Positions 20,991-52,679 of a stretch of DNA of 64,000 bases are shown here, piece by piece. A model generated the notes under the pieces. That model searched no databases, was not told the origin of the DNA, and saw nothing but the letters and a program-made list of their open reading frames with translations. How positions within the stretch are numbered: the first letter of the stretch is position 1; each line of letters opens with the position of its first letter. A program made the translations under genes and the position numbers. The DNA is taken from the NCBI RefSeq assembly GCF_900106565.1, contig NZ_FNNJ01000001.1, positions 620,001 to 684,000 of the forward strand, written 5' to 3'. Source of the DNA: Lutibacter oricola. Its GTDB lineage: Bacteria > Bacteroidota > Bacteroidia > Flavobacteriales > Flavobacteriaceae.

Positions 20991-20999
20991 GTGTTTTTA

Positions 21000-21035
21000 A
21001 CCGTTACAAGTACCGTTAAATTTAGGTTAAATATA
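21000..21035. promoter_or_regulatory. Triple 12-bp repeat operator between wHTH regulator 1 and block C
   Basis: ACCGTTACAAGT (21000), ACCGTTAAATTT (21012) and AGGTTAAATATA (21024) form three heptamer units with an exact 12-bp period. The same arrangement is found upstream of the paralogous regulator (41666-41701). It is 10 bp from the regulator start and about 100 bp from the DUF1080 start on the other strand, so it could serve both. Confidence 0.65.
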
Positions 21036-21137
21036 GTTATTTTAATTCATTGTAGTAATTTGTGCTAGCATTATAAAAAAATAATAGATTTATAATGTTG
21101 TAAAAGTAAAACCTAATAGAATTAATTAAAATATATA

Positions 21138-22502
21138 ATGAAAAACTTAATCACTTTAGTAATTACATTAACAATAATATTTAGTGTAAATGCTCAAAAA
21201 ACACAAGATCTTTTTAACGGAAAAAATTTAAAAGGGTGGAAAGCCTTAAATGGTTTTGCAAAATTCGAAGTTGAAGATAATGCAATTGTTGGAATCTCTA
21301 CAAAAGGATCGCCAAGTACATATTTATCAACTAAAAAGGAATTCACCAATTTTATTTTGGAATACGAAATTAAAATTGATGAAACATTAAATGGAGGGGT
21401 TCAAATTCGAAGTCATCACGATCCTTCTAAAGGGGATAATTCTGTGTATGGACCACAAGTAGAAGCAGAAACTTCTCCAAGAGGTTGGAATGGTGGAATC
21501 TTCGATCAAAGTAGACTTAATTGGAGATATACTGTTGAATACAATCCCGAAGTTAAAACTGCTTGGAATAATGGAGTGTGGAATAGTGTAAAAGTTATAG
21601 CAACTGGAAATAGAATTTCAACTTGGATAAACGGTGTAAATATCGCTAACCTTATTGAAGAAAAAGTAGAAACTGGATTTATAGCATTGCAGGTTCACGC
21701 AGCAGGTGGAGCCAAAATTGGTAAAAAAACCAGATGGAGAAATATTAAACTTACTGAAATTTCAGATAATTATAAGTTTGAAACTACTGCTCCTGTTATG
21801 AGTTATTTAAAGAATGAACTTACCCAAGAAGAAAAGAATAATGGATGGAAAATGCTTTGGGATGGAAAAACTACTAATGGTTGGAGAGGTGCTAAACAAA
21901 ATGGTTTTCCTAAGAAAGGTTGGAGTATAAAAGATGGTGTTCTTTCAGTACATGCTTCTGGTGGTGGAGAATCTGAACACGGAGGAGATATTGTTACTAT
22001 AAAATCATATAAGAATTTTATATTAGAATTAGACTTTAAGTTTACTGAAGGAGCTAATAGTGGTATCAAATATTTTGTTGATACTAATTTAAATAAAGGT
22101 AAAGGTTCTGCAATTGGTTGTGAGTATCAAATATTAGACGATAAAAAACATCCTGATGCTAAAAAAGGAGTGGATGGAAACCGAACTTTATCATCATTAT
22201 ACGATTTAATTCGAGGAAATGCTCAAGAGTATATACCTTCACTTTACACCAAGAAATATGTAAATAAAACGGGTTGGAACAGAGCTAGAATTGTAGTGGA
22301 TGGTAATAAAGTCCAACACTTTTTAAATGGTTGCAAAACTGTTGAATATGTTAGAGGAACTCAGCAATGGAGAGCCTTAGTTAAATATAGTAAATATAAA
22401 AATTGGCCTAACTTTGGTGAAGCTAAAGAAGGTCTTATTTTATTACAGGATCACGGAGATGAGGTTCATTTTAAAAATATAAAAATAAAAGAATTGAATT
22501 AA
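21138..22502 (+). CDS. Double DUF1080 (3-keto-disaccharide hydrolase-like) secreted protein
   Basis: A 454-aa protein with a signal peptide ending FSVNAQ and two DUF1080 (PF06439) concanavalin-like domains: about 22-205 (DLFNGKNLKGWKAL, GGVQIRSHHDPS, YGPQVEAE, WRNIKLTEI) and 235-454 (MLWDGKTTNGWRGA, GANSGIKYFVDT, IGCEYQILDD, VHFKNIKIKEL). Single-domain relatives hydrolyse 3-keto-glycosides made by Gfo/Idh-type oxidases. No such oxidase lies nearby, so here the domains may act as glycan-binding modules or conventional hydrolases. It is the first gene of block C. Confidence 0.8.
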   Translation: MKNLITLVITLTIIFSVNAQKTQDLFNGKNLKGWKALNGFAKFEVEDNAIVGISTKGSPSTYLSTKKEFTNFILEYEIKIDETLNGGVQIRSHHDPSKGDNSVYGPQVEAETSPRGWNGGIFDQSRLNWRYTVEYNPEVKTAWNNGVWNSVKVIATGNRISTWINGVNIANLIEEKVETGFIALQVHAAGGAKIGKKTRWRNIKLTEISDNYKFETTAPVMSYLKNELTQEEKNNGWKMLWDGKTTNGWRGAKQNGFPKKGWSIKDGVLSVHASGGGESEHGGDIVTIKSYKNFILELDFKFTEGANSGIKYFVDTNLNKGKGSAIGCEYQILDDKKHPDAKKGVDGNRTLSSLYDLIRGNAQEYIPSLYTKKYVNKTGWNRARIVVDGNKVQHFLNGCKTVEYVRGTQQWRALVKYSKYKNWPNFGEAKEGLILLQDHGDEVHFKNIKIKELN

Positions 22503-22514
22503 CCTGTTGTTATT

Positions 22515-24932
22515 ATGAAATCTAAATTTTTTAAAATCATTTTTAGCATATCACTTGTGCTTTTAGTTATTGGCTGTGAAAATTCAATTCAAAAACCTTC
22601 AAAAAGTGAAGTAAAAGCAATTACTAAAAAAGTGGCCGATTGGCAAATAAAAACTTTCGAAGATCAGGGTAAATATAGAGCATTGCCGTTACCTGAAAAT
22701 CAAAAAAAGTGGCATCACAGAAATAGGTACCACGATGCAGAGTGGATGGGAGCAGCATTGTACGCTGGAATGTATGAATTTTCTACTATTACTGCAGATC
22801 CAACCTATAGCAAATGGTTGTATGGAATTGGGCAAAAAAACAATTGGAAATTATATAAAAGAATGCATCATGCCGATGATCACGCTGTTGGGCAAATGTA
22901 CTTGAATATGCAAAAGATGTTTGGAAATCATCGGTTGATAAAACCGTTGCGTAACCAGTTCGATTCAATTTTAAATAGCGATGAAAGAGATAAATGGCAC
23001 TGGCATTGGGCAGATGCCTTGTTTATGGCTCCTCCAGTTTGGGCAAGATTAGCTAAAACTACCAAACAACAAAAATATTTGGAGTATATGGATGAGCAGT
23101 ATCATAAAACGTATGATGCTTTATGGGATAAGGAGGAACATTTATTTTATAGAGATAAGAAATATTTAGATCAAAAAGAAGAGAATGGTAAAGGTATATT
23201 TTGGTCGCGTGGAAATGGATGGGTTTTTGGTGGTTTAGCCCTAATGATACCAGATTTCCCTAACGATTGGGATGGTAAACAGTTTTATGTTGAAACATTT
23301 CAACAAATGGCAGAAACGTTGAAAAATACACAACGAAAAGATGGAACTTGGTCTTCGGGAATATTAGGTGGTGAAAAAGCATATCCAACAAAAGAAATTA
23401 GTGGTTCTGCATTTTTTGTGTTTGGATTGGCTTGGGGAATTAATAACGGAATATTGAATGCTGAAGTTTATGAACCAACTTTAATTAAAGGTTGGAAAGC
23501 TTTAACAGAATGTGTTACCGAAGATGGTTTGGTTGGCTATATACAACCTGTTGGAGCTGCTCCTGGAAATAGCTTTCCAAATTATACAGAATTGTATGGT
23601 GTGGGTGCTTTTTTAGCTGCTGGAGCAGAAATGTATAAATATGTTGAGAAAATTGAGGACGCAAATTCAACCAAAAAAGAAGTTAGCGAATTTACTACTT
23701 TTATGAATGATGGTGGTTGGTGTTGGTATCAAGATCCACGCGCTATTATAAATAATGGAAAGTTGGTTATTGGAGGTTTAAGTGGCCAAAGTGGAGATGT
23801 AAAAGTGAGCGTGTACGATTTAGAAACAAATACAAATAAAGGTACAGTTGTTTTAGATAAAAACTTTCAAGCTGATGATCACGATGTGCCAGCTTTGTAT
23901 GCTAGACCTGATGGAAGTATTCTTTCTGTTTGGGCAAAACATGGTAACGAAAAAATTCATCATTACAATATTTCATCACCTTCAAACTATTTAGAATGGA
24001 ATAATAAAAGTGAATTTAAATACGATTATAACGATAATAGAGGTGTAACTTATATGAATCTGTATTATTTAGAAAATGAAAATAATCTGTATAATTTTTA
24101 TAGAGATGGAGAAACTTATAATCCAAGCTTTATAACATCAAAAGATCACGGAACTACTTGGGGAAACAGAACTCATTTTATTGCTGATGATGTTGAAGGT
24201 CGTCAGCGTCCGTATGCTCGATATTTTCAAAAAGATAACAATACTGTGGGAGTTTCATTTACAGATGGTCATCCACGTCAATACGGAAATAGTTTGTATT
24301 ATGCTGAATATAGAAACGGTGCATTTTACAATGTTGATGGTTCAAAAATTAAAGATTTAAAAGAACCTTTAAGAACTCCTGAAGCTGAAAAAATTTATAT
24401 AGGTAGCGAAACTAAAGTAAAGCCAAAAGGTTTTGAAAGTGTACCAAATAGTGCTTGGACGTGTGCTATGGGAAAAGATTCAGAAAACAATCCGCATATT
24501 GGTTATTCGCTATATTTGAGTAATAATGATCACCGTTATAGAATTGCCGCTTGGGATGGAAAAAAATGGATTGATAAAGAAATTGCATATGCAGGAACGT
24601 GTTTGTACACTATGGAAAGTAGTTACACTGGTTTAATGGCTTTTGACCCTGAAGATCCAACTCAGGTTTATATTTCAACAGATGTAAATCCTTCAACAGG
24701 TGAAAAAATGAATAATATTCACGAGATTTATAGCGCGAAAATTGGATTAAATGACGATATTTCAACTATAAAATGGAAAGCAATTACTTCAAATTCTGAA
24801 TATAGAAATATCCGCCCAATTGTTGTAGCAGGTGAAGGGCATAAAGCCTTGATTTGGTTAAACGGACCTTGGAATTCTTTTGTGAATTACAAAGCAGATG
24901 TAAAAGGAATAATACTTTCTTCAAAAAAATAA
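22515..24932 (+). CDS. Fusion lipoprotein: GH105 unsaturated uronyl hydrolase + BNR_4-type beta-propeller
   Basis: An 805-aa lipoprotein (lipobox VIGC, C21). Residues about 30-375 are GH105: RYHDAEWMGAALYAGM, HHAD121-D-HAVGQMYL, HWHWAD167-ALFMAPPVWARLA, FWSRGNGWVFGGLA. Residues about 395-805 match the BNR_4 seven-bladed propeller (NDGGWCWYQDPRAI, ADDHDVPALYARPDGSILSVWAKHG, YARYFQKDNNTVGVSFTDGHPRQ, CAMGKDSENNPHIGYSLYLS). That fold is used by some ulvan lyases and by GH145/PL42 enzymes acting next to glucuronate. Joining the two on one chain would let the propeller release an unsaturated or terminal uronide that GH105 then removes. The exact chemistry is inferred. Confidence 0.82.
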   Translation: MKSKFFKIIFSISLVLLVIGCENSIQKPSKSEVKAITKKVADWQIKTFEDQGKYRALPLPENQKKWHHRNRYHDAEWMGAALYAGMYEFSTITADPTYSKWLYGIGQKNNWKLYKRMHHADDHAVGQMYLNMQKMFGNHRLIKPLRNQFDSILNSDERDKWHWHWADALFMAPPVWARLAKTTKQQKYLEYMDEQYHKTYDALWDKEEHLFYRDKKYLDQKEENGKGIFWSRGNGWVFGGLALMIPDFPNDWDGKQFYVETFQQMAETLKNTQRKDGTWSSGILGGEKAYPTKEISGSAFFVFGLAWGINNGILNAEVYEPTLIKGWKALTECVTEDGLVGYIQPVGAAPGNSFPNYTELYGVGAFLAAGAEMYKYVEKIEDANSTKKEVSEFTTFMNDGGWCWYQDPRAIINNGKLVIGGLSGQSGDVKVSVYDLETNTNKGTVVLDKNFQADDHDVPALYARPDGSILSVWAKHGNEKIHHYNISSPSNYLEWNNKSEFKYDYNDNRGVTYMNLYYLENENNLYNFYRDGETYNPSFITSKDHGTTWGNRTHFIADDVEGRQRPYARYFQKDNNTVGVSFTDGHPRQYGNSLYYAEYRNGAFYNVDGSKIKDLKEPLRTPEAEKIYIGSETKVKPKGFESVPNSAWTCAMGKDSENNPHIGYSLYLSNNDHRYRIAAWDGKKWIDKEIAYAGTCLYTMESSYTGLMAFDPEDPTQVYISTDVNPSTGEKMNNIHEIYSAKIGLNDDISTIKWKAITSNSEYRNIRPIVVAGEGHKALIWLNGPWNSFVNYKADVKGIILSSKK

Positions 24933-24935
24933 AAA

Positions 24936-26363
24936 ATGAAACAAATTAGAATAGTATTTATTGTTTTAATAAGTGTATTTACAGGTTCATTGATAGCTCA
25001 ATCTAAAAAGCAAAAAAATATTCTTCTAATTTGTATTGATGATTTACGTCCAGAATTGGCTTCATTTGGAGCGTCGTATATAAAGTCGCCCAATATTGAT
25101 AAATTGGCAAGTGAAGGTAGAGCGTTTCATAATCATTATGTGAATTCGCCTACTTGTGGAGCCTCAAGGTTTACAATGCTAACAGGAATGTATGGAACCT
25201 CCAAAAACGATGCGCTTTTTTTAAGAGCAAAAACAATGGCTAAAAAACCGGCTGAAGTGAATCCTAGTATGCCAGAGTGGTTTCGGAATAATGGATATAC
25301 AACTGTTTCTGTAGGGAAAGTTTCGCACCATCCAGGAGGAAGAGGCGGTAAGAATTGGGATGAACCTAACGTTATTGAAATGCCAAATGCTTGGGATAAA
25401 CATTTAATGCCAGTTGCAGAATGGGAACACCCAAGAGGTGGAATGCACGGATTGGCACATGGCGAAATTAGAGTAAAAGCCAATGAAATGGATCTTTTTC
25501 AGTCTGTTGAAGGTGAAGATACTATTTACCCTGATGGACATATTACAAATGAGGCTTTAAATCAGATAGATGATTTAACTCACAACTCCGAAAAACCTTT
25601 CTTTTTAGCTGTAGGAATTATCAGGCCTCATTTACCGTTTGGAGCACCAAAAAAGTATTTAGATTTATATAAAGGTGTTGAGATACCTGCAATTCCAAGT
25701 CCTGAAAAGCCAAAAGGGAAAACAACTTGGCACGGTTCAGGAGAATTTATGAAATACAATCGTTGGGGTAAAAACCCAAATGAAGATACTGTGTTTGCCG
25801 AGGAAGTTAGAAGGCATTATGCGGCCTGTGTAAGTTATGCCGATGCGCAGGTTGGTAAAATTATTTCAAAATTAAAAGAAACTGGAGCGGCTGAAAATAC
25901 AATTGTTGTTTTGTGGGGAGATCACGGTTGGAATTTAGGTGATCACGCAATTTGGGGTAAACATAATTTATTTGAAGAAGGTGTGCATTCGCCATTAATT
26001 ATTTCTTATCCAAATTTGAAAAAGAAAGGGAAAAGTACCAATGCCATAGTTGAAACAGTTGATATATTTCCAACATTATGTGATTTAACCGGATTAGAAA
26101 TTCCAGTATTTATTAATGGGAAATCTTTAAAACCGCAATTAAAAAAGTATAATAAAACAGGACATACTGCTTTTTCTTATAGAAATGGAGTGCATACAAT
26201 TAGAACTGACAAATACCGATTTACAGTGCATAAGAATGGTGAAATGGAATTATATAACCATAAAACGGATCCTTATGAAACTAAAAATATAGCATCAGAA
26301 AATTCTGCTGTAACTAAAAAATTAATGGTGTTACTTTCTAAAAAAATAAATTCGGTAAAATAG
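24936..26363 (+). CDS. S1 sulfatase, iduronate-2-sulfatase-like, with a CxAxR signature
   Basis: A 475-aa exported sulfatase (signal ending GSLIAQ), with only 3 bp between the fusion gene's stop and its start. The maturation site reads C74-G-A-S-R78, with alanine where the canonical motif has proline; CxAxR is known to be accepted by some maturases. Other motifs are [62 protein letters not shown] and [15 protein letters not shown], which resemble iduronate/choline-sulfatase-type members. It probably desulfates the uronide-containing oligosaccharide with the preceding fusion protein. Confidence 0.87.
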
Positions 26364-27494
26364 TTATTCAACTATACCAAAATCATAAATAACAACTTCG
26401 TTATATTTTTCGTTAGGCTTTAATAAAGTTGATGGGAAATTTGAATGATTTGGGCTATCAGGGAAATGCTCAGTTTCCAAACAAAAAGCTGAATGTTGCC
26501 CATATTTTATTCCTTTTTTACCAGTAAAATCTCCAATTGCATTTCCTGAGTAAAATTGAACTCCAGGTTGAGTTGTGGTAACGGTTAAAGTTCTTCCAGA
26601 TGTAGGTTCAATTACTTTAATAACTTCTTCCAACTTATTTTCAGGTTTGTTAAAAATATAGCAGTAGTGATATCCATTATGATTTAATTGGTGGATATTA
26701 TCTCCAATTCTTGTCATTTTTGTTAAATCCCAATCAGTTCCTTTTACTGTTGAAATTTTTCCAGTTGGAACTATGTCTTCATCAATTTCGGTATAATTAT
26801 CTGCTTTAATTTGAATTTTATGATTGTAAATTTTTTCTTTCATAGCAGTTAGGTTAAAATAACTATGCTGCGTAAGATTTACATGCGTTGTTTTGTTGGT
26901 TGTTGCTTCAAATTGTACGTGAATAGCATTGTTTTTTGTTAAAGTGTAAGTAACATAAACATCTAAATTACCAGGAAACCCATTTGTTCCATCTTTTGAA
27001 AAATGATGAAATTTAATTCCTTTGCCTATTTTATTTTCAACGTATGTTCCATCCCAAAGCGTTCTGTCAAATTCATTAGCACCATGTGAACAATGAACTT
27101 TATCATTTTGTTTAAGCTGGTATTTTACACCATCAATTTCAAACTGACCATTTCTAATTCTATTTGCAAACCTACCAATAGTTGCTCCAAAGCAAGGATT
27201 TTTATCTAAATATTGTTGTAAATTATCAAAACCTAAAACTACATCTTCAAAAACTCCGTTTTTATCTGGTGCTAAAACAGAAGTAATAATACCTCCATAA
27301 TTGGTTAGTTTAACGGTCATTCCATTTTTATTTGTAAGTGTATATAAAAAAGCAGTTTTCCCATTAACAGTTCCCCATTCTTCTTTTTGAAATCCTGTTT
27401 TTTTGGTTGAACAACTTGTTAGTAATACTATACAAAATATATATAGTATGGTGTTTTTTTGAAAGTAGATACTTTTTAATACGTTTAGTAACAT
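26364..27494 (-). CDS. Aldose 1-epimerase (mutarotase) lipoprotein
   Basis: A 376-aa GalM-family protein with a lipoprotein signal (IFCIVLLTSC). Family landmarks are LTNYGGIITSVLAPDKNG, GFDNLQQYLDKNPCFGATIGRFANRI, VNLTQHSYFNL (catalytic His region), VQFYSGNAIGDF, and the catalytic Glu in SAFCLETEHFPDSPNH. It interconverts alpha and beta anomers of galactose or glucose, here in the periplasm next to galactose-releasing enzymes. Its last base abuts the stop of the convergent sulfatase with no gap. The name galM would fit by family only. Confidence 0.9.
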   Translation of the reverse strand: MLLNVLKSIYFQKNTILYIFCIVLLTSCSTKKTGFQKEEWGTVNGKTAFLYTLTNKNGMTVKLTNYGGIITSVLAPDKNGVFEDVVLGFDNLQQYLDKNPCFGATIGRFANRIRNGQFEIDGVKYQLKQNDKVHCSHGANEFDRTLWDGTYVENKIGKGIKFHHFSKDGTNGFPGNLDVYVTYTLTKNNAIHVQFEATTNKTTHVNLTQHSYFNLTAMKEKIYNHKIQIKADNYTEIDEDIVPTGKISTVKGTDWDLTKMTRIGDNIHQLNHNGYHYCYIFNKPENKLEEVIKVIEPTSGRTLTVTTTQPGVQFYSGNAIGDFTGKKGIKYGQHSAFCLETEHFPDSPNHSNFPSTLLKPNEKYNEVVIYDFGIVE

Positions 27495-27743
27495 TTTGTG
27501 TTATGGTTAGTTGTTTGTGTATGGTTTAGATTTAGTGTTTCATAAAAACGAAATCTTATAGCCAAATATACCTACTAAAATATCAAAATAGAAATAAATT
27601 CAACCTTTATAAATGTTGCTATAAATGTGTATTAAATAAAACATTTGTTATATATAATTTTACATATGCCACTATAATTAGCTTTAAGGTTTCTTATTTT
27701 TACACAAAACCTAATCTAGGTAATTAACCTAAAAAATAATAGA

Positions 27744-31079: not shown

Positions 31080-31088
31080 TCATAAAAA

Positions 31089-32633
31089 ATGAAGTTATTA
31101 AAAATAGGAATTTCCATTTTTACAATGCTGATATTGTTTTCAGTAAATGCACAAAAAAATGAAAGTAAAAAGCCAAATATAATTGTTGTTTTAGCAGACG
31201 ATGTTGGAGTTGGAGATATTTCAAAATATAGAAGGTTACACAGCCCAAAAATAATTATTGAAACACCAAATATTGATAAACTGGCTGAAGGTGGTATGAT
31301 GTTCACAAATGCACATGCACCAGCATCTTTATGTGCAACTTCACGTTATTCAATAATGACAGGTAACTATAATTTTAGAAGTCCACTACCTTGGGGAGTT
31401 TGGTCTGGGTATGCATCAGGTGTTTTTACAAATGAAACATTAACCTTGGGTAGATTAATGAAAAAAGCAGATTACAACACTGCTTTTATCGGAAAATGGC
31501 ATTTAGGAACACGATTTAAGGATAAAACAAACCCAGAAAAATTATACGATTTAAAAAGAGGTAAAGCTTTAAATTTAAACGTAGATATTACAAGTATTGC
31601 TGATGGTGGACCAATGCAATTTGGTTTTGATTACAGTTTTACATTACCATCAGGTATTCAAAATGAACCATATTCAGCTTATGAAAATGATAAATGGTTT
31701 CCGTTGCACGAAAAATCTTTGATAGGTTTAATAGATGCTGCTTATTGCAATCGTTTAGGTTTTGAGTTGGATAAAAAAGAAGGTTTGGGAGATTCTATGT
31801 GGAACCCTAGTGAAATTGGGCCACTAATCGCTAACAAAGCCGTAAATTATATAAAAGAAAATGCTAAAAAAGACAAACCGTTTTTTATGTACTACTGTTC
31901 TCAAGCAGTGCATACACCGCATACAGCTCCTGAAGAATTAGATGGAATTAAAGTTAAGGGAACAACTCCTTCAAAACATTTGGATATGGTTAAAGAGCTT
32001 GATATTCAAATGAAAATGATGATTGACGAATTAAAAGCACAAGGTATTTATGAAAATACTGTGTTTATTTTTACGTCAGATAATGGAGGTTTACATACTG
32101 ATGGAGACACTTGGAATGCAAGACACGAACCAAGTGATATTTATAGAGGTTGTAAAAATGATCCTTATGAAGGTGGAAGTAGAGTTCCGTTTATAGTTTC
32201 TTGGCCAGGAAAAGTAAAAGCTGAAGCAAAAGCAAATCAGCCAGTTTTAGGAACCGATATTTTAGCAACTATTGCTTCAATTTCTGGTGTAGAACTTGGA
32301 AATAATGAAGCATTAGATTCTTACAATTTAGTGCCTGTATTAAAGCAACCTAAAAAAGCAAAAACAAGACCATTTGTAATAATTCAAGGAGGTTCAGGTA
32401 AAGAAGGTATGATTGTAAAAGATGGATGGAAATTAATAATTCAATTCGATAAAAAAGACAAAACAGATAAAACAAGAACGCCAATAGCTTTATTCGATTT
32501 AAAAAATAACATTTGGGAACACGAAGAGTTAAACCAAATAAACAATTCAAAATATAAAAAGAAAGTTACTAGTTTACTAAAATTGTATAATGAAACTAGA
32601 GATAATGGTATTGCTACAAGAAAAAATATATAA
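31089..32633 (+). CDS. S1 sulfatase with a CATSR signature
   Basis: A 514-aa exported sulfatase (signal ending FSVNAQ). The maturation site is LC82-A-T-S-R86-YSIMTG: cysteine and arginine are conserved but threonine replaces the usual proline. Surrounding motifs are normal: VVLADDVGVGDIS, GKWHLGTRF, YYCSQAVHTPHTAPEEL, FTSDNGGLHTDG and YEGGSRVPFIVSW. The LCATSRY form resembles the LCTPSRY of arylsulfatase-A-like enzymes. Whether maturation still occurs is open. It follows the Asp-box protein by 9 bp. Confidence 0.86.
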   Translation: MKLLKIGISIFTMLILFSVNAQKNESKKPNIIVVLADDVGVGDISKYRRLHSPKIIIETPNIDKLAEGGMMFTNAHAPASLCATSRYSIMTGNYNFRSPLPWGVWSGYASGVFTNETLTLGRLMKKADYNTAFIGKWHLGTRFKDKTNPEKLYDLKRGKALNLNVDITSIADGGPMQFGFDYSFTLPSGIQNEPYSAYENDKWFPLHEKSLIGLIDAAYCNRLGFELDKKEGLGDSMWNPSEIGPLIANKAVNYIKENAKKDKPFFMYYCSQAVHTPHTAPEELDGIKVKGTTPSKHLDMVKELDIQMKMMIDELKAQGIYENTVFIFTSDNGGLHTDGDTWNARHEPSDIYRGCKNDPYEGGSRVPFIVSWPGKVKAEAKANQPVLGTDILATIASISGVELGNNEALDSYNLVPVLKQPKKAKTRPFVIIQGGSGKEGMIVKDGWKLIIQFDKKDKTDKTRTPIALFDLKNNIWEHEELNQINNSKYKKKVTSLLKLYNETRDNGIATRKNI

Positions 32634-32664
32634 TTAAAACAAACAAGAATTAAGAACAAACAAA

Positions 32665-35127
32665 ATGAGAAAAGTACTTTACGTAATGAGTTTTTTAATG
32701 CTAACATTTGTTGGTGTAAACAAAACTCAAGCACAAGACATTAAGTTTAATGATGATTGGCGCTTTTTTAATGCTGAAGCCGAAGGAGCTGAAAAAAATA
32801 GCTTTGACGATTCAAAATGGAGAAATTTAAATTTACCACACGATTGGGCAATTGAAGGTCCTTTTAGTGAAGAATACAATGCACGTTGTGGAGGTTTACC
32901 ATTTCACGGTACAGGTTGGTATCGAAAAAACTTTAAAATGGAAGCATCAGCAAAAGGAAAAGTTGTTAGAATGGAGTTTGAAGGAGCAATGTATGATGCT
33001 CATATATGGGTAAATGGAGAATTTGTAGGTAACAGACCTTACGGTTATATTGGTTTTGAATTCGATATTAGTAACTATTTAAAATACGATGGTTCAGATA
33101 ATGTAGTGGCTGTGCGTTTACGTCCACAAGATTTATCTTCTCGTTGGTATCCAGGAGCAGGTTTATATCGTTCAGTTTGGTTAAAAATTGACAACCCAGT
33201 ACACGTTGAACAATGGGGAGCATATATTACAACTCCAACAGTTTCAGAAAAACTAGGAGTTGTTCAAAATGAAACAACTGTTGTAAACACAAGTAATAAA
33301 GACGCTAAAGTTGTAGTGAAACAAGAGTATTTTTCACCTGAAGGGAAATTAGCAGCTTCAATTGAAGATGAAATTACGGTGAAGGCAAATTCGAAAGAGG
33401 TTTCTGGAACTTACGTAAATGTGAAAAACCCTAAAATTTGGGATACTGAAAATCCAAGTATTTACAAAGCCGTTACTACGGTTTCAAAAAATGGAAAAGT
33501 AATTGATACGTACAATTCAACCTTCGGAATTAGAGCTATTTCATTTTCTACTGAAGGATTTTTCTTAAACGGGAAGAAAATTCGATTTAACGGTGTTTGT
33601 TTACATCACGATAATGGGTCATTAGGTTCTGCCGTTTACAAAAGAGCTGATGAACGTAAATTACAAATTATGAAAAGTATGGGTGTAAATGCAATCCGTA
33701 CAAGTCATAATCCACCTTCAAGAGAATTTTTAGAAGTATGTGATGAGTTAGGTTTATTAGTTTTAGATGAAGCTTTTGATGTTTGGGCTGAAGCAAAAGT
33801 TCCAAATGGATACAATGTATTTTTTAATGAATGGGCCGAGCGTGATATTAAAGATATGGTGAAAAGAGATAGAAATCACCCATCAATTATTATGTGGAGT
33901 ACAGGAAATGAAATTCATGAACAACACAACAAAAAAGAAGGTTGGAAAGTTGCAAGAATGTTGAGTAATTACTGTAAAGAAGTAGATCCAACGCGTCCTA
34001 CAACATTAGGAATGAACAATTTTGAAGCGCCTTATAAAATGAATTTTGCAGCGCAATCTGATATTGCAGGAATTAATTACAAGCCTACAAAATACGGTTA
34101 CATTCACGAAACATATCCACAATTAGCTTTATATGGTTCAGAAACTTCAAGTTGTACAAGCAGTAGAGGTGTATATCATTTACCAATTGAAAAATACACC
34201 ACACACGAATCTTTGCACGTAACAAGTTACGATTTAATTGGCCCACCTTGGGCATATCCACCAGATGTAGAATTCCATTTTCAAGAACAAAATCCAAACA
34301 TTATGGGTGAGTTTATTTGGACTGGATTTGATTATTTAGGAGAGCCAACGCCTTATGGAGGTAAAGACAACTCAACAAATGGATATTGGAACGGTCACTG
34401 GCCATCAAAAAGTTCATATTTTGGAGCTGTAGATTTATGTGGTTTCCCTAAAGATAGATTCTATTTATATCAAAGTCAGTGGACTTCAAAGCCAATGATT
34501 CACTTATTACCACATTGGAACTGGAAAGGAATGGAAGGACAAGATATTCCGGTTTATTGTTATACAAACTGTGATGAAGCAGAACTTTTTGTGAACGGAA
34601 AATCAATGGGTAAAAAAGTGAAAGGAAAAGATTTGACCGAATTAATAGTGAAATTTTCTAGATATGAAGGTGACTCATTTCAATCAAAATACCGTTTATC
34701 TTGGAATGTGCCTTACCAAGCAGGGAACATAAAAGTAGTTGGTTATAAAGATGGAAAGCAAGTATTAGAAAAACAAATTAATACAGCTGGTAAACCTGCA
34801 AAAGTTAGCTTAAAAGTTGATAGAAGAGAAATTAATGCAAATGGTGAAGATTTGGCCTATGTAACTGTTAGAATTGAAGATAAAAACGGAAATTTATGTC
34901 CTAATGCAACAAACTTGGTAAACTTCTCTGTAAAAGGTGCAGGAGAATTGGTTGGAGTTGATAATGGAAATCAAATTAGTTTAGAGTCTTTTCAAGCAAA
35001 TCATAGAAAAGCATTTAGTGGAATGTGTTTAGCAATTTTAAAGTCTTCAAAAACATCAGGAAAAATAACATTAACAGCTAAATCTAAACGATTAAAAAGC
35101 GCTGTAGTTGTTGTAGAAACTAAATAA
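32665..35127 (+). CDS. GH2 beta-galactosidase-like, with DUF4982 and Ig-like C-terminus
   Basis: An 820-aa exported enzyme (signal ending KTQAQ). The GH2 sugar-binding sandwich starts FNDDWRFFNAEAEGAEKNSFDDSKWRNLNLPHDWAIEGPF; the Ig domain is at about 185-290; the TIM barrel contains acid/base E416 in HPSIIMWSTGNEIHEQ and the likely nucleophile E493 in ALYGSETSSC. The C-terminal 250 residues contain a DUF4982-like domain and an invasin/Ig-like domain (VTVRIEDKNGNLCPNATNLVNFSVKGAGELVGVDNGN). Expected activity is exo-beta-galactosidase on galactan oligosaccharides, in the periplasm. Confidence 0.9.
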   Translation: MRKVLYVMSFLMLTFVGVNKTQAQDIKFNDDWRFFNAEAEGAEKNSFDDSKWRNLNLPHDWAIEGPFSEEYNARCGGLPFHGTGWYRKNFKMEASAKGKVVRMEFEGAMYDAHIWVNGEFVGNRPYGYIGFEFDISNYLKYDGSDNVVAVRLRPQDLSSRWYPGAGLYRSVWLKIDNPVHVEQWGAYITTPTVSEKLGVVQNETTVVNTSNKDAKVVVKQEYFSPEGKLAASIEDEITVKANSKEVSGTYVNVKNPKIWDTENPSIYKAVTTVSKNGKVIDTYNSTFGIRAISFSTEGFFLNGKKIRFNGVCLHHDNGSLGSAVYKRADERKLQIMKSMGVNAIRTSHNPPSREFLEVCDELGLLVLDEAFDVWAEAKVPNGYNVFFNEWAERDIKDMVKRDRNHPSIIMWSTGNEIHEQHNKKEGWKVARMLSNYCKEVDPTRPTTLGMNNFEAPYKMNFAAQSDIAGINYKPTKYGYIHETYPQLALYGSETSSCTSSRGVYHLPIEKYTTHESLHVTSYDLIGPPWAYPPDVEFHFQEQNPNIMGEFIWTGFDYLGEPTPYGGKDNSTNGYWNGHWPSKSSYFGAVDLCGFPKDRFYLYQSQWTSKPMIHLLPHWNWKGMEGQDIPVYCYTNCDEAELFVNGKSMGKKVKGKDLTELIVKFSRYEGDSFQSKYRLSWNVPYQAGNIKVVGYKDGKQVLEKQINTAGKPAKVSLKVDRREINANGEDLAYVTVRIEDKNGNLCPNATNLVNFSVKGAGELVGVDNGNQISLESFQANHRKAFSGMCLAILKSSKTSGKITLTAKSKRLKSAVVVVETK

Positions 35128-35141
35128 TTTATGTTGGATAT

Positions 35142-35226
35142 CGTCACCCTGAACTTGTTTCAGGGTCTCATAAAGAAGGTTAACAACATTAAAACTATGA
35201 GATGCTGAAATAAATTCAGTATGACG
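35142..35226. repeat. Intergenic palindromic repeat (REP/MITE-like), copy 1
   Basis: An 85-bp element bounded by CGTCA (35142-35146) and TGACG (35222-35226). It contains the hairpin CCCTGAACTTGTTTCAGGG at the left and GCTGAAATAAATTCAG at the right; TCTCAT and ATGAGA are also inverted. A degraded copy lies at 54293-54370. It fills most of the 116-bp gap between the GH2 and the Fn3-GH43-like gene. Confidence 0.65.
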
Positions 35227-35243
35227 TAGATATTCATTAAAAG

Positions 35244-37703
35244 ATGCTAAAAATGAAATTAAAAAATTTCATATTAATTTGTGCTTGTACAATTGGTTTT
35301 ATACCAGTTTTACAAGCACAAATTGCTTTATTGGGAGATAACTCTCCTCATAAAAATGTAAACGACGGTAATTTTGAGCAGGTAAAAGCATATTCTTGGA
35401 GAAAGGGCTTTCAATCTCCAAAATGGACTTGTAGCCATGGTGCAGATGAACATACAGGAGATAACCGAATGGCATTGTTTCAAGGAAGAATGTATAGTTC
35501 TGTTCCAGTTGGGATAATAGAATCTATTGTGTTGGATAATATTTCTGAATATTCTAAACCAAGAGTAGGTGATGTATTAAACTGGAGTTTTGGTGCAGAT
35601 TCCGAATATGATTGCAATGCAAAAATTACAATTAGTTTAGTTTTTGGTAAAAATGAAAGAGTTTTGGCTGAAAAAAAAGCAATTAAAGGTGGTGATCTAT
35701 TAGTTCAAGAATTTAGCGGGACTTATACAATTACTAAAAAAGATGCTGAACAAGGAATGCCTTTTGTCAGAGCTACGTTGTATTCAAATGATGGTGTAAA
35801 GGTATTTTTGAACTATGTGAATATTAGCGTTCAAAACCCTGAAACCAACGGTCCTGAAAAATTAAATGCAAGTATTGTTTCTGAAGGAATTCAGTTGAAT
35901 TGGATAGATAATAAACATTCCGAAGGAATAACATATAACGTTTACCGCGGAGAAAAACTAAGAAATACCTATAAAAAACTAGCAGAAAATGTAAAAGCTT
36001 TCAGTTATACAGATTCGAGTTTAATTAATGGTAAGCAATATCATTATTTGGTAACAAGAATTGGTGAAAAAGAATCGTCCAAATCACCAGTTGTAACCAT
36101 TACTAAAATTGATAAAGTAGCTCCAGCACCACCAACAAATCTTTCTGTAAAAGTTTTTGATACAGAGGTTGAAATCACTTGGAAAAAAAGTGTTGATAGG
36201 GATGTAAAGAATTATTCGGTATACAGAAGCGATTCAAAAGGAAATAATTTGCGTCAAATTGCTCACGATGTCACAAAGAATAGGTTTGTAGATTTTACAC
36301 CAGTTAAGGATATTGAAAATACATATGTTGTTTTTGCACACGATTTTAGCGGGAATAAAAGCAACCCTTCAAAACCAATAAAAGCAAAGGTAAAAGCAGT
36401 TTTTGGAACTTCGTTTAGCGATTTAATTTTACCAATGCCAATTACAGATAAATTGCGTTCTGATATTTGGGGAGCAGATGGAGTTATTCCTCGTGATCCA
36501 AATAACGGAATTGAAGATCCAGAATGGAGTTATTGGGGAGGAAGACCTGTTAAAGATAAAGATGGTAAATACCATATGAATGTTACACGTTGGCCAGCAA
36601 ATGCTACAAAAGGACATTGGGAATGGCCATTTTCTACAGTAGCTTATACAGTTGCAGACAATCCAATTGGACCTTATAAAGTAAAAAAAGAGATTGCTTA
36701 TGATTTTCATAATGGTTTAGGGCACAATCCAGATATAATTTTATTGAATGATGGAACATATATGTTGTATTCTCTAATTGACTGGGAAGCAACGTTGTTT
36801 ACTTCAAATTCGATGGCTGGACCATGGAAACGTTTGGGAGTGATGCAAGTGGATAAAAACACCAATTTAGAAGACCCTGAAAGAATGTATAGGTTTGAAA
36901 GAAATCTATCAGGTGTTCATCTAACTGATGGTCGTTTTTTATTTGTTACCAAGGCTGGAGGAATGATGATAAGTGAAGGAACTGATCCTTTAGGTCCATA
37001 TAAAATAGTTTCAAAAGAGATTAGACACAATCCAATTATTCCAGAAAAATATCGTAATTCAGGTTATGAAGATCCCGTACTTTGGAAAGATGATGTTCAA
37101 TTTCATATGATGATTAATGCCTTTTGGGATTATAGAGCCATTTATTTACGTTCTCCTGATGGAATTCATTGGAAGTTCAATCCAGGAACTGCTTATACAC
37201 CACACGATACTTCATATGAAGATGGTACGCAAACACATTGGTATAAGTTAGAACGTCCACACGTTTTACAAGATGAATTTGGAAGGGCAACACATTTGTC
37301 TTTGGCGGTTATTGATGTTCCTAAAAGAGATGATTTAGCTAAAGATAAGCACAATTCAAAAAATATTATTATGCCTTTGGTTTTGCATAAGCGAATTAAA
37401 ATGCTGAATAAAAAACCTATAAATAAGCATACAAAAAACATTAAAATTTTAATTAAAAGTGAAGATGAATTTAATGCTCAAAAGGATATTGATTTGTCTT
37501 CCTTAAGATATGGAGCTTCAGAAGAAGTGAATTTTGGAAGAGGTTCTAAAATTTTAAAAACGAAGAAAAAAGGAAAAGATTTAATTCTAATTTTTAACGG
37601 TGAAGGTAATGGAATTACGGATGTTAATTTTGCTGGAAAATTATTAGGGAAAACAAAAAATGGAAAATTATTAATTGGCTTTTCAAAGCTAATTGCAGAA
37701 TAA
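35244..37703 (+). CDS. Fn3-containing GH43/117-like beta-propeller hydrolase
   Basis: An 819-aa exported protein (signal ending VLQAQ). The N-terminal region (about 25-200) is a jelly-roll-like sandwich resembling a carbohydrate-binding module (YSWRKGFQSPKWTCSHGADEHTG, VLNWSFGADSEYDCNAKITISL). Two Fn3-like domains follow (about 208-292 and 296-392). The C-terminal half is a five-bladed-propeller region with the wording of GH43/GH117-type clans: WSYWGGRPVKDKDGKYHMNVTRWP, GLGHNPDIILLNDGTYMLYS, SGYEDPVLWKDDVQFHMMINAFWDY, TQTHWYKLERPHVLQDEFGRATHL. Candidate acidic residues are in NPD and YEDPV. No known GH family could be assigned with confidence. Confidence 0.72.
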   Translation: MLKMKLKNFILICACTIGFIPVLQAQIALLGDNSPHKNVNDGNFEQVKAYSWRKGFQSPKWTCSHGADEHTGDNRMALFQGRMYSSVPVGIIESIVLDNISEYSKPRVGDVLNWSFGADSEYDCNAKITISLVFGKNERVLAEKKAIKGGDLLVQEFSGTYTITKKDAEQGMPFVRATLYSNDGVKVFLNYVNISVQNPETNGPEKLNASIVSEGIQLNWIDNKHSEGITYNVYRGEKLRNTYKKLAENVKAFSYTDSSLINGKQYHYLVTRIGEKESSKSPVVTITKIDKVAPAPPTNLSVKVFDTEVEITWKKSVDRDVKNYSVYRSDSKGNNLRQIAHDVTKNRFVDFTPVKDIENTYVVFAHDFSGNKSNPSKPIKAKVKAVFGTSFSDLILPMPITDKLRSDIWGADGVIPRDPNNGIEDPEWSYWGGRPVKDKDGKYHMNVTRWPANATKGHWEWPFSTVAYTVADNPIGPYKVKKEIAYDFHNGLGHNPDIILLNDGTYMLYSLIDWEATLFTSNSMAGPWKRLGVMQVDKNTNLEDPERMYRFERNLSGVHLTDGRFLFVTKAGGMMISEGTDPLGPYKIVSKEIRHNPIIPEKYRNSGYEDPVLWKDDVQFHMMINAFWDYRAIYLRSPDGIHWKFNPGTAYTPHDTSYEDGTQTHWYKLERPHVLQDEFGRATHLSLAVIDVPKRDDLAKDKHNSKNIIMPLVLHKRIKMLNKKPINKHTKNIKILIKSEDEFNAQKDIDLSSLRYGASEEVNFGRGSKILKTKKKGKDLILIFNGEGNGITDVNFAGKLLGKTKNGKLLIGFSKLIAE

Positions 37704-37710
37704 ATAAATT

Positions 37711-38817
37711 ATGACTAAAAATTACATATTAGTAATAGTAGCTTGTATAATGTTATTTTCTTGTGGTGTAAAAACTACTTCAGAAATAAAAGATTATAAA
37801 AATTTAGGCTTTACACCAATTTCACCAGAAACTGTTGCAAGTTTTCAGAATAACCAAACAACAAAACAAGTATTGGTGGAGCCAGATAAATTTGTTTGGG
37901 GATTGAGTGTAGTTAAATGGGAAGGAAAATACCATGCATATTATTCTCGTTGGAATAAAAAATATGAACATAAAGGTTGGATGACAAATTGTGAAATTGC
38001 ACATGCAGTATCAGATACTCCAGAAGGGCCTTTTAAGTTTGTGAATGTGGTTTTAGAAGATCAAAAAACAACAGGTTGGGATTTAAACAATTCTCATAAT
38101 CCGTATGCTACCATTGCTGAAGGAAAAATATGTTTGTATTACATAGCAAATGATATTAAAGGGTTGCTTAAGAAAGATAAAATTGAGTATCCAAACGAAG
38201 ATTGGTTTAATGAAAATAGAAAACCTATACGTGATAGTCAACGAATTGGTGTTGCGGTAGCTGAAAATCCTTCTGGTCCATTTGTGCGTTCAGAAAAAGT
38301 GGTGGTTGAACCTGATAATGTAAAGTTTAAAAAAATTGCAGTAAATCCAGCAGTAATTCACAAAGACGGTAAATACTTAATGATTATGAAAGGTGATGAT
38401 TTAAAGCACGAAAAACCTTTTAGAATTCAGTTGGTAGGTAGTTCTAAAAATGCTGAAGGGCCTTTTGTTTTTAAAAAGAAACCTGTATATGCCGAAGCCC
38501 AAACAGAAGATGCTTGTATGTGGTTTGATCAAGTAATGAATAAGTATTATATGGTTTGTCACGTTATGGGAAAAAAGGATTTGGCGTTGTTTAATTCTGA
38601 AAATGGATTCGATTGGCAACAAGATGAAAGAAGCGTTTTTATGAAGAAAGAATTTGTACTTTCGGATGGAACTCTTTGGAAACCAAAACGTGTAGAACGT
38701 CCGTTTGTTTTAACCAATGAAAAAGGACAGCCAACAATGATTTATGTAGCAGTTTACGATAATAATGTAAATGGAAATATTGCCATTCCAATTGAATATA
38801 ATAACATTGAAAAATAA
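37711..38817 (+). CDS. GH43/117-like beta-propeller lipoprotein
   Basis: A 368-aa lipoprotein (lipobox MLFSC). It shares the propeller wording of the preceding gene: FVWGLSVVKWEGKYHAYYSRWNKKYEHKGW, EIAHAVSDTPEGPFKFVNVVL, WDLNNSHNPYATIAEGKICLYYIAND, VNPAVIHKDGKYLMIMKG, EDACMWFDQVMNKYYMVCHVMG, VERPFVLTNEKGQPTMIYVAV. This is a single catalytic-type domain without Fn3 modules, so the two neighbours are probably related by duplication plus domain gain. It is a probable periplasmic exo-acting galactosidase or anhydro-galactosidase; family and specificity are unknown. Confidence 0.7.
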   Translation: MTKNYILVIVACIMLFSCGVKTTSEIKDYKNLGFTPISPETVASFQNNQTTKQVLVEPDKFVWGLSVVKWEGKYHAYYSRWNKKYEHKGWMTNCEIAHAVSDTPEGPFKFVNVVLEDQKTTGWDLNNSHNPYATIAEGKICLYYIANDIKGLLKKDKIEYPNEDWFNENRKPIRDSQRIGVAVAENPSGPFVRSEKVVVEPDNVKFKKIAVNPAVIHKDGKYLMIMKGDDLKHEKPFRIQLVGSSKNAEGPFVFKKKPVYAEAQTEDACMWFDQVMNKYYMVCHVMGKKDLALFNSENGFDWQQDERSVFMKKEFVLSDGTLWKPKRVERPFVLTNEKGQPTMIYVAVYDNNVNGNIAIPIEYNNIEK

Positions 38818-38822
38818 AAAAT

Positions 38823-40418
38823 ATGAAAAAAATAATTTCACTTCTAACTCTAGTTTTTGCCTTATTTGTATCGTGTAATACAGATAAAAAAGTAGAGAAG
38901 AAAACATCTGAACCAGAAAAGAAAAACATTTTATTCATTCTTGCAGATGATTATGGTTACAATGATATGAGTTTTAGAAACGATAGTTTTTATGAAACTC
39001 CAAATATTGATGCCATAGCAAAAAGCGGAACTGTTTTTAGTAATGGTTATGCCAATTGCCAAGTGTGTAGCCCTTCAAGAGCAAGTATTATGAACGGTAA
39101 ATTTCCGGCACGCCACGGAATTACGGATTGGATTGGAGCTCGTGAAGGTGAAAAATGGAGAGAGAAAAAAAGATTTTCAAAATTAATGCCTGCAAGTTAT
39201 AAGCACAATTTGGCGCATAAAGATGTTACGTTGCCTGAAGCTCTAAAAGAAGAAGGTTATGCTACGTTTTTTGCTGGAAAATGGCATTTAGGTGAGAAAG
39301 GTTCGTGGCCAGAAGATCACGGTTTTGATATTAATAAAGGTGGTTGGGATGCTGGTGGACCTCGAGGAGGTTATTATTCACCATATAGCAATCCAAATTT
39401 AAAAGATGGAGAAGATGGTGAGAGTTTAAGTATGCGTTTGGCTAAAGAAACAGTAGATTTTATGAAAGCTAATAAAGACGAAAAGTTCTTTGCTTATTTG
39501 TCGTTTTATGCTGTTCACGGTCCAATTCAAACTTCAAAAGAAAAATGGGAAAAATACCGTAAGAAAGCGGAAAAGAATGGAATTGCTGAAAGCTCTTTTA
39601 AAATGAAGAAATTTTTCCCAATGAGAGAAACTCAAGACAATCCAGTATACGCAGGTTTGGTTGAAACAATGGATGATGCAGTTGGAGTTGTGCTTAAAGG
39701 ATTAAAAGATTTAGGTTTAGATAAAAATACCATTGTTGTTTTTACTTCAGATAATGGTGGAGTTTCTGCTGGTGATGCTTATTCTACTTCAAACTTGCCA
39801 TTAAGAGGGGGTAAAGGTTATCAATATGAAGGTGGAATTAGAGAGCCATATTTTATAAAAGTTCCTTGGTTAGAAAAAAGGATTGAAGAAAATAATACAC
39901 CAGTTTCTGGAGCAGATTTTTATCCAACATTGTTAGATTTGGTTGGAGCTAAATTAAAGCCTGAGGAGCATTTAGATGGTGTAAGTTTGTTACCGCTTTT
40001 AAAAGGTGAAACTATTAATGAGCGCCCACTTATTTGGCATTATCCACACTACGGAAATCAAGGTGGAGAGCCTTCTTCAATTATTAGAAAAGGTGATTGG
40101 AAATTGATTCATTATTACGAAGATGGCAGAAATGAACTATTCAACTTGAAAAATGATTTAAGTGAAATGAATGAAGTTTCAAAAGAGAATTCAGAATTAG
40201 TAGCTTCATTAAAAACAGAATTGTTCGATTATTTAAAAGAAGTTGGAGCAAATTTTCCTAAAAAAGATCCATTGTATAATGCAGAGTTAGAAGCCAAACA
40301 TTTAAATAAAATGGCAACTAAAAAACTACAAAGTTTAGAAAAACAACGTAAAGCATATTTATCACCAGATTTTGATCCTAAAAATAATTGGTGGGGAAGT
40401 TTTCAAACAATAGATTAG
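38823..40418 (+). CDS. S1 formylglycine sulfatase lipoprotein
   Basis: A 531-aa lipoprotein (lipobox LFVSC, C18) with signature C82-S-P-S-R86-ASIMNGKFPARHG, LADDYGYNDMSF, GKWHLGEKG, FYAVHGPIQTSKEKWEKY, FTSDNGGVSAGD and HYPHYGNQGGEPSS. It starts 5 bp after the propeller lipoprotein and is the last gene of block D, facing the wHTH regulator across a shared terminator. It would act in the periplasm on oligosaccharides. Confidence 0.9.
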   Translation: MKKIISLLTLVFALFVSCNTDKKVEKKTSEPEKKNILFILADDYGYNDMSFRNDSFYETPNIDAIAKSGTVFSNGYANCQVCSPSRASIMNGKFPARHGITDWIGAREGEKWREKKRFSKLMPASYKHNLAHKDVTLPEALKEEGYATFFAGKWHLGEKGSWPEDHGFDINKGGWDAGGPRGGYYSPYSNPNLKDGEDGESLSMRLAKETVDFMKANKDEKFFAYLSFYAVHGPIQTSKEKWEKYRKKAEKNGIAESSFKMKKFFPMRETQDNPVYAGLVETMDDAVGVVLKGLKDLGLDKNTIVVFTSDNGGVSAGDAYSTSNLPLRGGKGYQYEGGIREPYFIKVPWLEKRIEENNTPVSGADFYPTLLDLVGAKLKPEEHLDGVSLLPLLKGETINERPLIWHYPHYGNQGGEPSSIIRKGDWKLIHYYEDGRNELFNLKNDLSEMNEVSKENSELVASLKTELFDYLKEVGANFPKKDPLYNAELEAKHLNKMATKKLQSLEKQRKAYLSPDFDPKNNWWGSFQTID

Positions 40419-40448
40419 TGAAATAAAGAAATTGATTTATAAAGTATA

Positions 40449-40482
40449 AAATGGCAGTTGGTTTAAAAACCTACTGCCATTT
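40449..40482. terminator. Bidirectional terminator between the sulfatase and wHTH regulator 2
   Basis: AAATGGCAGT (40449-40458) pairs with ACTGCCATTT (40473-40482), and the inner GGTTT/AAACC pair extends the stem around one T-T mismatch. The right half overlaps the last codons of the minus-strand regulator (MAVGF then stop), so the regulator's C-terminus is encoded within the hairpin. Confidence 0.75.
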
Positions 40483-41623
40483 CTAGTTTAATATCTGTGT
40501 TTGTTCTGTTTTGTCCTTTTACTTTAAATAATGCAGTAAAGTGAGATTTATCTTTTAGATGGGTGTTTGTAAACTTTTCAATACTATCCAAATTTGTGAA
40601 TAATTCTGAAGTTGCGCTTACACCTATATCGTGATCTGAGAAAAACACAAAATGTTCCGTGTTTTCTATCCCTGCATATCTTGAAACTATTGCATATTCT
40701 TCATTTATTTCAGTAGTTTTTAGATTGAATATAGTGTCCTTTCGTTCAGTGTGGTTATGAAAGTATAGCTTATTATTTTTAATTTCAAAATAAGGGTTTC
40801 CTTCATTAAAAAAATGAATAAATTGATTATTATTTTTAATTGGACCAGCATAAATTGCATTCCCTTCTTTTATTTCAGAAATGGAAGTTAATGTAGAAAA
40901 ACGAATTGGTAAATCTTGATTGTAATGTTGAAATAATCTTTCAAACTGTTGAGTTGCCAGTGCTGCCATTCTAGTAGTATAGGTGTAATTTGCAGGTTTT
41001 TGAGACACTTTTAATTGTGGCTTTTTTTCAAGTAATTCATAAAATTCGTTAACGCTATTTATATTGAAGTCTCTCGTCCATCCAACTCCACCAGTAATAG
41101 TATTCCCGGCAATACCAAAATGGTCTCCTATAAATAAATTTGTTGGTTTCTCTTTATTTATAATTGATTTCCAGATAGTTGGTGTTTTAGGAGATGTGTT
41201 TGTAAAAATAAGAGCAAATAATGTAATTACCAGAGCAACATAAGGAATTATATGAACCCATTTAATTCTTTTTACTAGTTGTTTGCTTAATTGTTTTTTG
41301 AAAAATCGAACTTCATATTGTCCTTTGTCAATAGTTAAATGCCAAACGTCATCTTTACCTTCATTCTCATAATATTGAGCAATTTTTTTTCGAAGATTGT
41401 AAATGTTAACTCGTACTCTGGGGTTGTTTTTGTCTGAAACTTCTTTGCTGCCGAAGAATTCTATATCTATAACACTTTCCTTTAAATTTACACCTTTCAA
41501 TGTAGCTTCATTTAAATATTGCAATAAAGCATTACTTGTTGAAGCCTTTTTAAAGGTGTTACTTTCTCTTATTTTAGTAACAATTTCTTGTTTTTGAGTA
41601 GTTGTAAGTTTTGCGTTAATCAT
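40463..41623 (-). CDS. Membrane one-component regulator: wHTH - TM - extracytoplasmic domain (copy 2)
   Basis: A 386-aa paralog of 19833-20990 with the same layout: wHTH-like domain at about 8-110 (FKKASTSNALLQYLNEATLKG, NPRVRVNIYNLRKKIAQYYENEG, LTIDKGQYEVRFF), TM at about 124-142 (IIPYVALVITLFALIFT), and a C-terminal domain with FIGDHFGIAGNTITGGVGWTRDFNIN, FFSDHDIGVSATSELFTN and KSHFTALFKVKGQNRTN. The DNA-binding domain is clearly more conserved than the sensor parts. It is divergent from uronate isomerase, and the region between them carries the same triple 12-bp repeat as the other paralog. It probably regulates block E. Confidence 0.75.
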   Translation of the reverse strand: MINAKLTTTQKQEIVTKIRESNTFKKASTSNALLQYLNEATLKGVNLKESVIDIEFFGSKEVSDKNNPRVRVNIYNLRKKIAQYYENEGKDDVWHLTIDKGQYEVRFFKKQLSKQLVKRIKWVHIIPYVALVITLFALIFTNTSPKTPTIWKSIINKEKPTNLFIGDHFGIAGNTITGGVGWTRDFNINSVNEFYELLEKKPQLKVSQKPANYTYTTRMAALATQQFERLFQHYNQDLPIRFSTLTSISEIKEGNAIYAGPIKNNNQFIHFFNEGNPYFEIKNNKLYFHNHTERKDTIFNLKTTEINEEYAIVSRYAGIENTEHFVFFSDHDIGVSATSELFTNLDSIEKFTNTHLKDKSHFTALFKVKGQNRTNTDIKLEMAVGF

Positions 41624-41665
41624 TTTATAGTTGTTAGGTATTCAGCTTTATACAAGCCATCATTA

Positions 41666-41701
41666 ACCGTTATAGGTACCGTTAAAGATGCGTTAAAGTT
41701 A
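41666..41701. promoter_or_regulatory. Triple 12-bp repeat operator between wHTH regulator 2 and uronate isomerase
   Basis: ACCGTTATAGGT (41666), ACCGTTAAAGAT (41678) and GCGTTAAAGTTA (41690) form three heptamer units with an exact 12-bp period, matching the site at 21000-21035 in sequence and spacing. It lies 65 bp before the uronate isomerase start and 42 bp before the regulator start on the opposite strand. Confidence 0.68.
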
Positions 41702-41765
41702 TTAAATATAATCTTTATAAATATATTTGAGTAGAGAATTTTTAATAATTAATAAGGAAGACAAA

Positions 41766-43166: not shown

Positions 43167-43176
43167 ATATCGAAGT

Positions 43177-46002: not shown

Positions 46003-46012
46003 TTGATAAAAA

Positions 46013-48847: not shown

Positions 48848-48855
48848 TCAATATT

Positions 48856-52667: not shown

Positions 52668-52679
52668 AAAGAAAAAAGA

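Follow-up and report, generated by a model that had tools for sequence, protein, structure and literature searches.

Tandem 12-bp repeats as probable operators of predicted membrane-anchored winged-helix regulators at polysaccharide loci of Lutibacter oricola and related Bacteroidota

The window analyzed here, a stretch of 64,000 nucleotides from Lutibacter oricola, carries two genes for winged-helix (wHTH) regulators on the minus strand, P0001 and P0002, each facing catabolic genes on the plus strand (Table 1). Its part between 9288 and 63698 is rich in genes for polysaccharide degradation, including two GH16, seven sulfatase, one GH88, four GH2-type, three GH43-type and two fucosidase genes, as well as a glucuronate isomerase (UxaC) gene and a gene encoding an AraC-type TPR regulator. 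No match to SusC or SusD was obtained among the 30 window proteins scanned. The genes at 41766–54221 are taken as one operon because the gaps between them are short. For P0001, the ATG at 20981 was preferred to the TTG start of the mechanical open reading frame.

Table 1. Regulators, repeats, promoter-like boxes and divergent genes in the window
Feature	Coordinates	Strand	Remarks
Regulator P0001, 382 aa	19833..20981	-	N-terminal wHTH, one TM helix, C-terminal (probably periplasmic) domain
Putative operator 1: TTAACCGTTA-CAAGT-ACCGTTAAA, third unit GTTAAAT at 21026	20997..21032	+	reads toward 21138
Weak -7-like box TAATTTGT	21056..21063	+	4/6 to TAnnTTTG; 41 bp from second GTTA; assigned by position
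3-keto-disaccharide hydrolase	21138..22502	+	first gene of presumed target operon 1; PF06439, 4.5e-81
GH88 family protein	22515..24932	+	presumed target operon 1; PF07470, 7.6e-73
Sulfatase	24936..26363	+	presumed target operon 1; PF00884, 1.5e-48
Regulator P0002, 386 aa	40463..41623	-	N-terminal wHTH, one TM helix, C-terminal (probably periplasmic) domain
Putative operator 2: TTAACCGTTA-TAGGT-ACCGTTAAA, third unit GTTAAAG at 41692	41663..41698	+	reads toward 41766
-7 box TATATTTG	41722..41729	+	exact TAnnTTTG; 41 bp from second GTTA, 30 bp from third
Glucuronate isomerase UxaC	41766..43166	+	first gene of presumed target operon 2; PF02614, 1.1e-207
GH2, GH2, GH43-type, GH2-like, alpha-L-fucosidase	43177..54221	+	rest of presumed target operon 2

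The two regulators are 45% identical, from which we conclude that their genes descend from a duplication. Neither P0001 nor P0002 matches any Pfam family at E<=0.001 or any NCBIfam family at E<=1, and the two proteins gave no match to a kinase, receiver or sigma family. Their domain layout follows from structure prediction and hydropathy. A single hydrophobic segment spans residues 118–140 of P0001 and 120–144 of P0002; one such segment is present in 38 of 43 regulator rows (a few genes are present twice among the rows), and the other five have a hydrophobic peak at the same place that stays below the transmembrane threshold. The predicted structure has a TM helix at 122–142 and a separately folded C-terminal domain (mean pLDDT 89.7), whose fold is similar to that of a domain found in GH67/GH115 alpha-glucuronidases and in BcsB and suggests a ligand class worth testing. 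From the wHTH and the basic residues ahead of the TM helix we deduce that this putative sensor would lie on the periplasmic side. Two more paralogs are encoded outside the window, on contig 51 of G000 (L005, 567003–568112, plus strand; L006, 568171–569295, minus strand), tail to tail and about 60 bp apart. Upstream of L005 there are AACGGTTA-like repeats and TAAATTTG, with no period-12 site within one mismatch. L006, the fourth paralog (start at 568171), was omitted from the operator counts because its best match was its neighboring gene.

An earlier note on this DNA had pointed to two identical heptamers between each regulator and its divergent catabolic block. We found the pair ACCGTTA-N5-ACCGTTA exactly as described and on the plus strand, at 21000–21018 and 41666–41684, and both sites are indeed flanked by a regulator gene on the minus strand and catabolic genes on the plus strand. 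The same note proposed a whole-genome scan, which gave no scatter of matches: over 4,124,325 bases (4.12 Mb) the exact pair occurs only at 21000 and 41666, beside the two paralogs, and the reversed-pattern control gave no match. Within the window, four matches with up to two mismatches (two of them exact) compare with a mean of 0.25 and a maximum of 2 in 100 shuffles, while the three-unit pattern with up to three mismatches recovered the same two sites only (one match for the reversed control). The shared sequence is wider than the two heptamers: TTAACCGTTA-N5-ACCGTTAAA is common to both sites and covers 24 bp with 19 defined letters. A third unit at an exact 12-bp period, as originally described, is contradicted by the positions of the GTTA cores, which start at 21003, 21015 and 21026 and at 41669, 41681 and 41692, so that a spacing of 12 bp is followed by one of 11 bp at both sites. 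The third units themselves differ (GGTTAAAT versus GCGTTAAAG), and outside the repeats the flanks of the two sites, as printed, show no evident similarity.

The arrangement is conserved beside related regulators. The search for homologs covered 299 family genomes, 21 of which gave a match, and 395 genomes of the phylum, with matches in 12, while a scan of contigs contributed 12 loci; ten further homologs from the 299-genome search are without a fetched locus, and duplicates of the same place (L037, L038, L040, L042, L068–L070, L080–L082, L088, L094) were counted once. The operator-like sequence, with 16–19 of its 19 defined letters, lies 15–72 bp from the regulator start in 22 of the 24 distinct close homologs fetched, a count made on one strand. 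The two others are L011, with a decayed site (13/19 letters), and L016, where 17/19 letters are retained 223 bp away with a third unit of 4/6. One of the 22 loci comes from a Labilibaculum MAG (L043), a genus which we take to lie outside Flavobacteriaceae. Across the close loci a third GTTAAA follows the second core at 10 or 11 bp. A separate scan of both strands, with up to two mismatches, detected the sequence in 20 of the 22 loci, in each of which it points away from the regulator. In a logo of 18 sites (without L011, L016, L018, L028, L029 and L030), TTAAC.GTTA and ACnGTTAA are kept throughout, and most flanking columns are near background.

Most of the divergent genes are related to glycan use. 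In the P0002-type group (14 loci scanned of 16) they encode UxaC in six cases, GH2 in six, and a beta-helix protein and a BNR_4 protein in one each. In the four P0001-type loci they encode a 3-keto-disaccharide hydrolase (two) or a TonB-dependent receptor (two), and in a third clade the hydrolase again in the three loci scanned of four. The loci scanned for divergent genes did not include L016 and L018. The beta-helix, BNR_4 and receptor genes are compatible with glycan use but non-specific. In Flavobacterium sp. 7A, a second P0002-type copy (L041, 4001–5137), with no ATG near the expected start, adjoins a beta-helix protein gene, not a GH2 or uxaC gene.

The repeats also keep a fixed distance to a promoter element. 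In Flavobacterium psychrophilum, the sigma-A consensus for the -7 box is TAnnTTTG, located at -12 to -5 (PMC9723704), and TATATTTG at 41722 agrees with it. Among 22 loci (L011 and L016 not included), 18 have TAnnTTT at an offset of 41 bp from the second GTTA and one has it at 40 bp, whereas it occurs in at most two loci at any other offset between 15 and 74; the full TAnnTTTG stands at offset 41 in 14 of the 22. Only window site 1, L008 and L043 have no TAnnTTT at 40–41. Where the third unit is displaced by one base, as in L014 and L008 (the latter with a weaker box), the box is displaced with it, so that the 30 bp between them are kept; the distance is 31 bp in the clade of L018 and L028–L030. 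If the box is placed at -12 to -5, the three GTTA cores would therefore start at about -65, -53 and -42, that is, just upstream of the -33 region or touching it. Inspection of the logo revealed no evident TTTG-like -33 box.

This geometry bears on whether the regulator would activate or repress. The same operator might serve repression: sitting between the two divergent promoters, the regulator would silence the gene that encodes it, and possibly the catabolic promoter as well, as long as no inducer releases it. Such a role would suit the short distances between operator and regulator ATG (15 bp and 39 bp in the window), and in 16 of 24 loci, of both paralog types, a TAnnTTTA on the regulator strand (5/6 to the -7 box; overlaps reckoned by hand from listed positions) overlaps the third unit, so that a possible regulator promoter would be covered. 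Yet the TAnnTTTA argument is weak because this sequence is partly the mere complement of the third unit, and none is listed in L012, L013, L028, L029 and L030. Moreover, it is the distance to the catabolic -7 box that is fixed, while that to the regulator start varies over the 15–72 bp given above, and the operator lies upstream of the catabolic box, not over it. We thus regard repression as the main role as unlikely, although autoregulation by the regulator is plausible given the nearness of the sites to its start and the overlap of TAnnTTTA with the third unit.

The spacers between the first two units turned out to be paralog-specific. We built a tree of 30 regulator rows (23 ingroup and 7 outgroup; L018, with its frame cut short, was left out), in which P0001-type rows form one clade (100/99) with the spacer CAAGT in all four. 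The P0002-type clade (95/90) comprises 16 rows, the spacer starting with T in 15, conforming to TAnnT in 14 and reading TAGCT in nine, while the third clade has AAACA. Spacer class thus tracks the regulator tree, and the three genomes possessing both types (G000, G002 and G444) keep the two spacers distinct. The identical heptamers had been regarded as strong evidence for cross-talk between the paralogs; since the spacers follow the regulator tree, we consider them instead an ancestral core that says nothing special about cross-talk. Some cross-binding is possible, as the recognition helices of the two regulator types are nearly identical. The tree also weighs against the repeats being sites of a third regulator, such as the AraC-type TPR regulator encoded at 9288–11369. 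Another regulator is present in the region, and the pairing of wHTH and operator is itself deduced from sequence; but across genomes the site goes with the wHTH family, its spacer classes match the branches of the wHTH tree, and a more distant subclade of this family carries a variant of the 12-bp tandem of its own (below), so that this explanation appears very improbable.

The association with the regulator was also found when whole genomes were searched. Without mismatches, TTAACSGTTA-N5-ACCGTTAAA has 11 occurrences, spread over 10 of the 299 family genomes, all 10 falling among the 13 genomes whose best regulator match has E<=1.1e-46, and 10 of the 11 places adjoin a regulator. Allowing one mismatch added eight places, two beside a regulator and six not, but this level is largely background, as the reversed control over the 299 genomes produced 18 matches, those with no mismatch and those with one being counted together. 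The CAAGT form, searched with up to two mismatches in 395 genomes of the order, was found at four places in three genomes, each of which also encodes a regulator, against one control match. The eleventh unmismatched place (L063, 1501–1524, in G236, of the same genus as G001) lies ahead of a GH2 gene and retains the full geometry, with the third GTTA at 11 and TAACTTTA at 41, although the 3-kb locus contains no regulator homolog. The close regulator of this genome, L011, is encoded about 278 kb away on the same contig; it is the one with the decayed site, and no divergent gene was found in the 1.5 kb in view. At L040, in the Zobellia uliginosa genome (apparently G001), the regulator and a GH2 gene are still arranged divergently. 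At L063, then, the operator stands by the target gene, as should be expected of an operator acting in trans.

More distant homologs possess related sites. An exact ACnGTT tandem with a period of 12 was found beside 12 of 35 distant homologs and in none of 100 shuffles (mean 0.00), and with up to one mismatch beside 17 (shuffle mean 0.41); the other 18 have no period-12 site within one mismatch. Exact tandems at other periods were limited to 19 (four) and 20 (two), while periods 10, 11, 19 and 20 likewise rose above every shuffle once one mismatch was allowed. Two of the 17 sites (L072 and L092) point toward the regulator and the remaining 15 away from it. One subclade (L019, L023, L024, L026 and L034) has TTAACWGTTA followed by ACWGTTT as the second half, and in all five loci the offset of TAnnTTT is 34, not 41; some of these loci have an extra GTTA about 19 bp downstream.

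These results leave little room for a chance likeness of the two window sites, or for a recent duplication in which the paralogs were copied along with the divergent region. The 45% identity does indicate that the genes share a duplication origin. Yet the flanks are without evident similarity beyond the operator, and each of the two operators falls into a clade of its own that extends over several genera; neither alignable flanks nor the heptamer pair at many unrelated places was found. The window shuffles, the genome scan, the 299-genome scan and the distant-homolog shuffles make chance very unlikely, and the explanation as a whole is the least probable of those considered here.

As for known systems, the closest in layout are ToxR-like receptors (ToxR, CadC, TcpP), described in PMC5430869 as combining a wHTH of OmpR type in the cytoplasm with a single transmembrane helix and a sensor in the periplasm. 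P0001 and P0002 share the order of a wHTH, a TM helix and a putative sensor, including the single helix after the DNA-binding domain (hydropathy and model). The Cad1 sites of CadC, however, are described there as head to head, in contrast to the 12-bp tandem found here. OmpR-type domains have an N-terminal beta platform, whereas the wHTH of P0001 and P0002, which falls below the Pfam Trans_reg_C cut-off, has N-terminal helices at this place in the model.

SusR-like regulators are likewise membrane proteins with a periplasmic sensor and a cytoplasmic DNA-binding domain, and direct-repeat motifs precede glycan genes (PMC3878776). Yet the DNA-binding domain of SusR is C-terminal and a distance of 67 or 77 bp is predicted between its tandem sites (PMC3878776), whereas P0001 and P0002 have an N-terminal wHTH and core spacings of 12 and 11 bp. 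Hybrid two-component systems (HTCS) and ECF sigma/anti-sigma pairs of polysaccharide utilization loci (PULs) also control glycan loci from an extracytoplasmic signal (same source), but P0001 and P0002 differ from them in having no match to a kinase, receiver or sigma family. Response regulators of the PhoB/OmpR type differ as well, the present proteins having a membrane anchor and a putative sensor domain instead of a receiver domain.

The earlier note had proposed a shared direct-repeat operator of OmpR/SARP type, and this stands only in part. A shared operator agrees with the conservation beside 22 of the 24 close homologs, and the SARP regulator AfsR, according to PMC10936776, has an OmpR-type wHTH, a likely counterpart of the present one, and direct repeats near the promoter, as found here, activating where promoter elements are deficient. 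The specific SARP features do not fit: in that source the repeats are 11 or 22 bp apart, the 3' repeat lying 8 bp from the -10 element, whereas here spacings are 12 and then 10 or 11 bp and the third GTTA starts 30–31 bp before the -7 box (22 loci). In addition, P0001 and P0002 have no BTA domain; their wHTH is followed by the TM helix and an alpha/beta domain. The best reading is that the system is ToxR-like in layout but has an operator geometry and a sensor of its own, the repeats being direct-repeat operators of a little-described class of polysaccharide-locus activators.

The repeat is conserved, oriented away from the regulator, fixed in its spacing to the -7 box and associated with the regulator family. 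We put at roughly 80% the probability that each repeat is the operator of the adjoining wHTH regulator and that this regulator is a membrane-anchored one-component activator of the divergent catabolic operon. Binding, activation, the membrane side and the glycan signal are all part of the mechanism that we infer, in which the regulator would have an OmpR-like wHTH in the cytoplasm, connected through a single transmembrane helix to a sensor in the periplasm. A periplasmic glycan signal would meet the sensor; two or three wHTH domains would then align head to tail on the tandem sites, just upstream of the -33 region, and the bound regulator would recruit RNA polymerase, switching on the divergent catabolic operon.

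A broader reading, to which we give about even odds, is that these proteins represent an undescribed class of PUL regulators scattered across the phylum: ToxR/CadC-like membrane activators with a sensor derived from the domain fold of GH67/GH115 alpha-glucuronidases and BcsB, direct readout of uronic-acid-type glycans, 12-bp tandem operators with clade-specific spacers and a fixed promoter geometry. Among the CC-licensed PMC papers that our searches listed, we came across no description of this regulator family. SusR-like, HTCS and ECF/anti-sigma systems are the Bacteroidetes-specific types proposed for PULs in PMC3878776, and the present class, if confirmed, would add a fourth route beside them. 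Loci under such regulators may pass as having no known regulator, because P0001 and P0002 match no Pfam or NCBIfam family. The operator, its geometry and the clade-specific spacers would then offer a testable means of assigning regulons in marine Bacteroidota.
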